Assembly: GCA_037386965.1 (NCBI GenBank)
Contig: JARRLN010000055.1
Span: forward strand, 1-51,063
DNA length: 51,063 nucleotides
Direction of reading: 5' to 3'
Origin: Nitrospirota bacterium
GTDB taxonomy: Bacteria; Nitrospirota; Thermodesulfovibrionia; Thermodesulfovibrionales; JdFR-86
Part shown: positions 20,565-21,759 of the stretch, one piece after another
How the letters are laid out: every line of letters begins with the position of its first letter
How positions within the stretch are numbered: the stretch's first letter is position 1
Position numbers and translations under genes: made by a program
The notes under the pieces: generated by a model
Told to the model about the DNA's origin: nothing
Database searches by the model: none
The model's input: only the letters and a program-made list of their open reading frames with translations

Positions 20565-20747
20565 TTAGAACCTGTCTCAAAATTGATTTCGAAGCGAAAG
20601 AGAGAATAAATGGCGGCAGACAAGGAGGGAAGGGGAAATCGCCCGGAGGCGCAGCAGCGCTGCGTTGAGGACGATTTTCCCTTCAGGACGCCGTATGCCG
20701 TTATTTAGGCCTCTTGTAGCCGGAAGCAATTTTGAAACAGGTTCTAA
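20565..20747. mobile_element. 183-bp palindromic MITE-like element
   Basis: The ends TTAGAACCTGTCTCAAAATT (20565-) and its near-perfect complement ending at 20747 match at 20 of 21 positions. The interior is also largely self-complementary: GGGGAAATCG...GCGCAGC faces GCTGCG...CGATTTTCCC. It has no coding capacity, as expected of a non-autonomous element moved by a transposase elsewhere. The right end supplies the stop codon of the gene at 20744-21082. Confidence 0.8.
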
Positions 20748-21082
20748 TAGATGGAGCGGATTCTTCCGGTCATTCTGTCGAAGATTATCTGGTCGATGAC
20801 CTTTCCGTCACGGACGACGTCCACTAGGAGAAACCTGCCCCCCGTCCGGATGTTGGCGATGCTGCAGCCCTTGGTGTGGAAATAGGCCTTCAGGGCCATG
20901 ACGGCCTGATGAGGATGCACGGGTCCTCGGTGTGCGCCGTAGAGGCTGCACTGGGGGCAAAAGTCCCCGTATGGCGTCACGGTTCCCTCGGGCTCCTCGG
21001 CACGGGCATGGCCGGGCAGGGAAAATGCCGCCGCCCCGAGGGCGAGGGCGAGGGCGAGTATGAGGGCAATCTTCTTCACCAT
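20744..21082 (-). CDS. Small exported protein of unknown function
   Basis: A 112-residue protein with a signal peptide of Lys-Lys plus alternating Leu/Ala (cleavage near ARA-EE, about residue 28). The mature part has a CPQC pair (about residues 42-45), several His, and a C-terminal stretch that recalls PepSY-like folds (VIDQIIFDRMTGRIRSIY). The stop codon TAG is formed within the MITE end, so the original 3' end may have been altered. Upstream are two GTGAAG repeats 11 bases apart. A TATAAT abuts the ATG and no ribosome-binding site is visible, so translation may start at the second codon, a GTG, on a leaderless RNA. Confidence 0.7.
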   Translation of the reverse strand: MVKKIALILALALALGAAAFSLPGHARAEEPEGTVTPYGDFCPQCSLYGAHRGPVHPHQAVMALKAYFHTKGCSIANIRTGGRFLLVDVVRDGKVIDQIIFDRMTGRIRSIY

Positions 21083-21101
21083 ATTATATTAACAGGCTAT
21101 C

Positions 21102-21118
21102 GTGAAGAAAAAGTGAAG
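21102..21118. promoter_or_regulatory. Direct-repeat operator, two sites, 11-bp phase
   Basis: GTGAAG-N5-GTGAAG (on the minus strand CTTCAC-N5-CTTCAC), 20-36 bases upstream of the ATG at 21082. The 11-bp phase is typical of OmpR/PhoB-family response regulators. Four such half-sites precede the neighbouring gene. Confidence 0.6.
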
Positions 21119-21170
21119 ATTTCCCCGGGGACCTTATTCCCTTTCCGGGAACGTCCCCCTCGCTGCCCGA

Positions 21171-21202
21171 ATAAAAAAGGGGGCCGCTTCCGGCCCCCTT
21201 TT
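21171..21202 (-). terminator. Intrinsic terminator after the Spy-like gene
   Basis: An 11-bp stem (AAAGGGGGCCG / CGGCCCCCTTT) with a 4-base loop. On the minus strand it is followed by a run of six T. It lies 5 bases beyond the stop of the gene at 21207-21650. Confidence 0.85.
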
Positions 21203-21206
21203 ATTG

Positions 21207-21650
21207 CTAGCGCCAGCCGCCGGGGCCGGGGCATCCCCAGCCCGGGCCGCCGCGATACATCATGCCGGGCCCGTAGCCGGGACCATATCCATACATCATG
21301 CCGGGGCCGTAGCCAGGGCCGAAGGTCCGGGGACCGAAAACCCCGGGGCCGCCCTTCTTCTGAATCTTCGTCCGAAGGTCGGTAATCTCCTTGGTCAGGG
21401 CATCGGCCTTCTCCTGGTCGCCGGTCCTCAGGGCCTCGCGATAATCGAACATCTTGCCGGCGAGGTCCCGCCGGAGGTCGGCGGTCTCCTGGAAGAACTT
21501 CTGTGCCTGCTCGCTGGAGTAAGCGGAGTTGCCTCCCCACCAGCCGGGACCGCCGCCCCAGCCGGGACTGCCGCTGCCGTGCGCATAGGCCGCCGCGCCC
21601 CCTCCCAGTATGGCGATAACCGCCGCCAGTGCGATGAGCGTCTTTTTCAT
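21207..21650 (-). CDS. Spy/ZraP-like periplasmic protein with Gly-Pro-Tyr repeats
   Basis: A 147-residue protein with a signal peptide (cleavage near AYA-HG, residue 23). The centre, about residues 45-100, is helical and carries the LRRDL/LTKEITDLRTKI pattern of LTXXQ/Spy-CpxP-ZraP proteins. The N- and C-terminal ends are Gly/Trp/Pro-rich, and the C-terminus has tandem repeats of GPGYGPGMMY with many Met, suggesting metal binding. Such proteins are periplasmic chaperones or zinc/copper-stress sensors. Upstream four 11-bp-spaced TTCA half-sites suggest control by an OmpR-type regulator. GAGGAGGTGAT precedes the ATG, a strong ribosome-binding site. Confidence 0.8.
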   Translation of the reverse strand: MKKTLIALAAVIAILGGGAAAYAHGSGSPGWGGGPGWWGGNSAYSSEQAQKFFQETADLRRDLAGKMFDYREALRTGDQEKADALTKEITDLRTKIQKKGGPGVFGPRTFGPGYGPGMMYGYGPGYGPGMMYRGGPGWGCPGPGGWR

Positions 21651-21718
21651 TCGTCTATCACCTCCTCTCCCGAAGGGTTTTGAATACCTTTGAATGTGCC
21701 TTCACTCTAGCAGAGGAC

Positions 21719-21759
21719 TTTGAAGACACGGTGAAGGACTTGTGAAAAGATTATGAAGG
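21719..21759. promoter_or_regulatory. Four-fold 11-bp direct-repeat operator
   Basis: TGAAG/TGAAA half-sites begin at 21721, 21732, 21743 and 21754, exactly 11 bases apart. Read on the minus strand these are CTTCA, CTTCA, TTTCA and CTTCA. They lie 69-109 bases upstream of the ATG at 21650. This is the geometry bound head-to-tail by OmpR/PhoB-type regulators. Confidence 0.7.

Follow-up and report, generated by a model that had tools for sequence, protein, structure and literature searches.

The window, a stretch of 51,063 nucleotides from a Nitrospirota bacterium of the order Thermodesulfovibrionales, contains two neighbouring minus-strand genes for small exported proteins, each preceded by direct repeats of a CTTCA half-site. 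The features of the locus are as follows.

21715 to 21758, minus strand: operator of the Spy-like gene, four half-sites in 11-bp direct repeats, CTTCATAATCT TTTCACAAGTC CTTCACCGTGT CTTCAAAGTCC (sequence)
21704 to 21709, minus strand: -10 hexamer TAGAGT, 11 nt after the last CTTCA (TANNNT at that offset in 22 of 24 arrays)
21657 to 21665, minus strand: ribosome-binding site of the Spy-like gene, GGAGGTGAT (sequence)
21207 to 21650, minus strand: Spy/ZraP-like exported protein, 147 aa (open reading frame, weak profile matches)
21170 to 21202, minus strand: intrinsic terminator, 12-bp stem and U-run, between the Spy-like gene and its neighbour (folding)
21097 to 21118, minus strand: two-box operator of the neighbour, CTTCACTTTTT CTTCACGATAG (sequence)
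21086 to 21091, minus strand: -10 hexamer of the neighbour, TAATAT, at the same 11-nt distance from the last CTTCA (no mismatch to CTTCAN6CTTCAN11TANNNT)
20744 to 21082, minus strand: small exported protein of the TGRIRSIY family, 112 aa (open reading frame, family alignment)

The original prediction placed TGAAR half-sites at 21721, 21732, 21743 and 21754 and GTGAAG sites at 21102 and 21113, and all of these positions were confirmed in the window. On the gene strand, the half-sites of the four-box operator read CTTCA (three of the four boxes) or TTTCA, at an exact pitch of 11 bp. The boxes have the orientation of the gene and lie at a fixed distance from the -10 hexamer, a point absent from the prediction. 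Activator sites of OmpR-family regulators typically consist of direct repeats that are spaced at 11 bp and occupy the -35 position, and boxes that replace the -35 element close to the -10 hexamer are the class II activator layout of OmpR/PhoB-type promoters. Both properties were found: the four window boxes are head-to-tail repeats of about one helical turn (10-11 bp), and TANNNT was present exactly 11 nt after the last NTTCA in the arrays counted above, and at 12 nt in another. The 24 arrays, in which most boxes are CTTCA, came from the same genome and its relatives and were selected for at least four boxes (three in two loci). Owing to this selection, the arrays are informative on one point alone, the lack of longer runs: there were never more than four consecutive perfect boxes. 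The proposal that these half-sites are bound by an OmpR/PhoB-type regulator is supported by the pitch and by the fixed spacing to the -10 hexamer.

The terminator between the two genes is strong (-29.7 kcal/mol over a 66-nt stretch, z -2.6), and the neighbour therefore needs its own promoter. In this gene and in its paralogue on contig C116, the predicted -10 hexamer lies only 3-6 nt before the ATG codon (window 21079-21091; L008 164-178) and no ribosome-binding site is visible. The corresponding mRNAs are therefore predicted to be leaderless. A 181-bp element (window 20566-20746) separates the neighbour from a ClpB-like gene. Its ends are near-perfect 20-bp inverted sequences, TAGAACCTGT[CT]TCAAAATTG. 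The genome contains 25 matches to these ends and none to the reversed control, and at two or more other places the ends are likewise exactly 181 bp apart. Judged by its sequence, the element is a MITE-like repeat.

The four-box array is enriched and marks promoters

CTTCAN6CTTCA was observed twice in the window for an expectation of 0.15, and four TTCA motifs spaced at 11 bp form one run, which was found in none of 200 dinucleotide shuffles. The genome-wide search for CTTCA-N6-CTTCA arrays, which the original prediction proposed as a check, returned 11 places versus 1 for the reversed pattern. Three boxes with at most one mismatch gave 20 places versus 1. The full pattern, which comprises four boxes and the -10 hexamer (19 fixed positions), was present at 8 places versus 0 in the same genome (own-genome sites being enumerated by pattern searches with at most three mismatches). 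Across 149 genomes of the order, where at most one mismatch was accepted, a tally over the listed matches gave 132 places in 57 genomes versus 0 for the control. The four-box operator of the window has no mismatch to this order-wide pattern. Several matches to the short pattern with two mismatches were left out of the regulon because the reversed control gave 14 for 33 observed. The possibility that the motif is common and unrelated to promoters was not borne out, in view of the order-wide count and of the -10-like hexamers behind the arrays. With this count and the absence of four-box runs from the window shuffles, an origin of the array by chance or from low-complexity sequence deserves next to no credence.

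Genes located behind the arrays

Six of the eight places in the genome are at promoters of small exported proteins or of the C11 operon, and the other two are divergent Pho-type sites near pstS and phoB on contig C4. The C116 array precedes the paralogue of the window neighbour. Contig C33 carries two array promoters, one for a Cys-rich small protein and one for an exported protein rich in Gly, His and Met. The C36 array precedes the gene of an exported protein rich in Gly, Tyr and Met, which is Spy-like only in its appearance and for which a Pfam search gave no useful match. The C11 array precedes a cytochrome-like gene and a third paralogue of the window neighbour. Weaker sites were detected on three other contigs: on C127 before the gene of a CopZ-like HMA protein (PF00403, E=5e-17), on C25 before a CcmH-like gene (PF03918), and on C105, where the site carries TCTTCACAA and the gene behind it encodes a short exported protein.

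The site on C25 (38077-38109; L044 8078-8110) is a good two-box site with a -10 hexamer, located before CcmH-like and thioredoxin-like genes, a placement that suggests a link between the regulon and cytochrome c maturation. Contigs C72 and C88 (L049 and L050) contain near-identical stretches in which a CTTCA array with roughly four boxes is accompanied by a -10 hexamer, the C72 copy having a larger exported protein gene behind the array. This stretch is possibly a duplicated member of the regulon.

The assignment of both exported genes of the window to one regulon is supported, and the two promoters share the box type and the 11-nt gap to the -10 hexamer. As to the nature of this regulon, predicted to respond to envelope or metal stress, the envelope part of the claim held up. 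The metal part fared less well, with one CopZ-like candidate at a poorer site and matches to ZraP and Metal_resist below cut-off.

In relatives, arrays precede Spy-like genes at loci L109, L112, L114, L115, L116, L117, L120 and L126, and directly precede genes of the TGRIRSIY family at L119 and L127. The TGRIRSIY gene is second behind the array at L109 and L120. Other arrays (e.g. L111, L113, L121-L125 and L128) precede different or unrecognised genes, and the regulon is thus wider than the Spy-like and TGRIRSIY families. We also considered 80 TGRIRSIY loci from public genomes, which were Nitrospirota MAGs, many of them named Thermodesulfovibrionales, together with some Deltaproteobacteria, Syntrophus and Geobacter. 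An array matching at least 15 of the 19 positions was present within 1.4 kb upstream in 42 of these loci, versus 1 for the reversed control. The scores of 15 often arose where boxes one and two were set 10 bp apart and the third box read TTCG. A regulator with an H[IV]KN[LI]R helix was encoded within about 5 kb in 56 loci, and a kinase in 57.

The arrays are linked to BaeSR-like regulator-kinase pairs

The genome encodes five OmpR-family regulators scoring above cut-off. Two of them, encoded on C11 and C8, form a pair of sister paralogues with 54% identity, and each is paired with a BaeS-like kinase. These pairs are the likely source of the regulator of the array, which the original prediction left unnamed. 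Two others were set aside as candidates: the C66 regulator has HINR instead of HIKN, the C50 regulator has no HIKN-type helix, and no array was found for either of them in the upstream stretches inspected.

The linkage between array and kinase was shown by computation, as were the operator, its constant promoter spacing and the gene set that follows it. In the C11 locus (L059), the regulator-kinase operon is followed, directly past the kinase stop codon, by an array, a cytochrome-like gene and a TGRIRSIY gene. The array is immediately 3' of the kinase gene in 11 of 14 C11-type loci (shuffle p ≤0.007 each). Besides L059, it has this position in genomes G026, G035, G014, G006, G031, G015, G027, G036, G017 and G029, and C11-type arrays are mostly followed by Spy-like genes, TGRIRSIY genes or both. 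For the C8 type, G001 has an array flanked by a divergent regulator-kinase pair on one side and a Spy-TGRIRSIY operon on the other, and a two-box array is located behind the kinase in G039. The C8-type loci examined are usually without an adjacent array. This linkage favours C11 over C8 as the candidate regulator of the window site, although either paralogue may act there. In L163 (G024 C45) and L164 (G012 C5), the genes of two BaeR-like regulators stand next to each other in divergent orientation, each accompanied by a kinase gene, and no array was found near them. This arrangement is possibly the ancestral layout of the two paralogous systems.

Another factor might bind the array, either a different regulator or one acting by repression, in which case the kinase operon would be linked to the array because its neighbour is merely a target. 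One clear exception to the co-occurrence of arrays and regulators speaks for this: G010 has three arrays (C1:1733180, 1804644 and 2087540), and a search of its single contig, which is 96% complete, yielded neither an OmpR-family regulator nor a matching kinase. The absence may be an assembly fault or may be real. Against another factor, 11-bp direct repeats at -35 are typical of OmpR-family activators, the array-regulator linkage is conserved across families, and the specificity residues and the published BaeR core match, as described below. We consider binding by another factor to be unlikely, and infer that a C11/C8-type regulator binds the array.

Comparison with BaeR, PhoB and other OmpR-family regulators

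The best match of the C11 regulator in the PDB was E. coli BaeR (4b09, E=2.7e-49); for the C8 regulator, BaeR ranked third among solved relatives, behind RegX3 and MtrA. BaeS was the best NCBIfam match for both kinases. These scores were far below the cut-offs of the BaeS model NF012163 (195-229 bits for the kinases versus 500) and of the BaeR model NF007982 (201-219 bits for the regulators versus 380). In the alignment, the C11 and C8 regulators share with E. coli BaeR a recognition helix with HIKN and a wing with VYG, which are not found in PhoB (HIRR, VRG), CpxR (HISN, LRG) or CusR. Overall, the two regulators are 38-40% identical to E. coli BaeR and 38-39% to PhoB. Since the identity to BaeR is no higher than that to PhoB, our claim is that the system works like BaeSR, not that it is BaeSR.

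The published consensus of BaeR is TCTNCANAA, in which CTNCA is the core; one site that BaeR needs for binding has the sequence GGTTGCTTCATGATTCCC (PMC3799227). This core is present in the CTTCA boxes of the window and in TCTTCACAA at C105. In E. coli, BaeR directly controls spy and mdtA (PMC7657598). The E. coli spy promoter (...CTCCATAATTGGCGCAAAAGTGTTTTTTACACT) matched 14 of the 19 positions in the same frame and ends with TACACT. At mdtA (TTTCATAATTCCTCCATTTTTCTCCCTTATTGGCTGGCTACACT), similar CTNCA/TTCA boxes were found with a less regular spacing. The two regulons have in common a BaeR-like helix and wing, a CTNCA core, a similar distance to the -10 hexamer and, judging by size, signal peptide and helical core, a target resembling spy. 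They differ in that the window operator has four regular boxes at a strict 11-bp pitch, and in that the partner is a TGRIRSIY protein here and the mdtABC efflux operon in E. coli, in addition to the BaeR/BaeS scores and overall identities given above.

PhoB also binds 11-bp head-to-tail repeats close to the -10 hexamer and acts by class II activation. If the array were a PhoB-type Pho box, its genes would belong to the phosphate regulon, and two of the eight matches in the genome are indeed located beside pstS and phoB on C4. Two Pho-type arrays near pstS (G000 C4:52713-53005, L061) have the 11-bp pitch and the -10 spacing of the window operator, and one of them reads CTGTCACAGTCCTGTAAC. However, in the two boxes nearest to the -10 hexamer, the C4 sites read CGTCA or CTGTCACAGTCCTGTAAC, not CTTCA; the half-site of PhoB is GTCA, that of the arrays TTCA. 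The recognition helix of E. coli PhoB is HIRRLR, and the genes behind the array are different. Moreover, it is C11/C8-type regulators rather than phoB that show linkage to the CTTCA arrays, and in the f9 genomes examined the only such regulator is 46-48% identical (PhoB-like) and full arrays are absent. The Pho box was rejected as the main reading on these differences in half-site and linkage, and we regard it as very unlikely. Palindromes of the CusR/CopR type were ruled out, the window boxes being direct repeats and the helix being different. CpxR boxes are GTAAA and do not fit, and this reading was dropped. Together, the comparisons indicate that the array is probably the activator operator of a BaeSR-like envelope-stress regulon, for which we do not claim orthology to BaeSR.

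Exported proteins of the regulon

The 147-aa protein and its homologues in relatives are Spy-like by size, signal peptide and helical core, with Pfam and NCBIfam scores below cut-off. For the window protein, these were E=0.0054 and 17.3 bits with Metal_resist (PF13801, cut-off 29.2 bits) and E=1.3e-5 and 25.4 bits with the NCBIfam ZraP model (cut-off 200 bits). The TGRIRSIY family consists of small exported proteins ending in this motif, 16 of which were aligned. No Pfam family was found for it, and no NCBIfam family for the 112-aa member of the window. Pfam PepSY (PF03413) did not match the window member, and one of the 16 members gave E=0.11. The AlphaFold2 model of the 112-aa protein (pLDDT 82) comprises a signal helix and a helix-plus-four-strand domain. 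Structure comparison returned the PepSY-type proteins YpeB (Z 5.8) and YpmB (Z 4.8) among many tied matches, not above background. The modelled domain is possibly PepSY-like.

According to the available text of a report on Vibrio cholerae, DbfQ contains a PepSY domain, binds the sensor of the kinase DbfS and restrains this kinase, and the DbfQRS system responds to membrane integrity (PMC12714742). As in DbfQRS, a small exported protein is encoded here beside a kinase-regulator pair. Unlike DbfQ, the TGRIRSIY proteins are below the Pfam PepSY cut-off, and the available text describes no operator of the four-box type. Since DbfQ binds and restrains a neighbouring kinase, a feedback role of the TGRIRSIY protein is plausible. 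By this analogy, we tentatively raise the possibility, doubtful as it is, that TGRIRSIY proteins are periplasmic feedback modulators that bind and restrain the sensor of their own kinase.

Discussion

In the mechanism that we propose, an envelope signal would activate the BaeS-like kinase, leading to phosphorylation of the OmpR-family response regulator. Two regulator dimers would then bind head to tail to the four CTTCA(T/C)AAT half-sites, on one face of the helix. The bound regulator would replace the -35 element, 11 nt from the -10 hexamer, and act by class II activation through recruitment of RNA polymerase. This would switch on the synthesis of Spy-like periplasmic proteins, of their small exported TGRIRSIY partner and of other envelope proteins, as judged from the genes behind the operator.

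Literature searches for a description in Thermodesulfovibrio and, separately, for the 11-bp pitch gave no match in the collection searched. OmpR-family envelope-stress regulons are of a known kind; the present one belongs to a little-studied lineage, its geometry is unusually rigid and its partner family has no name. From sequence alone, the analysis assigns to envelope stress a likely regulator, an operator and a regulon in bacteria on which little genetic work exists. The constant four-box layout is distinct enough for annotation of the regulon in any genome of the order. Recognition of BaeR-type half-sites appears to be coupled to Spy-like targets in bacteria far removed from the Enterobacteria, and an unnamed family of exported proteins is tied to a BaeS-like kinase. 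If the feedback role of the TGRIRSIY proteins is correct, the system would form a self-limiting envelope-stress loop, in which the regulator induces Spy-like chaperones and a kinase-restraining protein via the four-box operator. Such a loop would span the Thermodesulfovibrionales and some Desulfobacterota, and would be built on a family for which no Pfam or NCBIfam entry was found.
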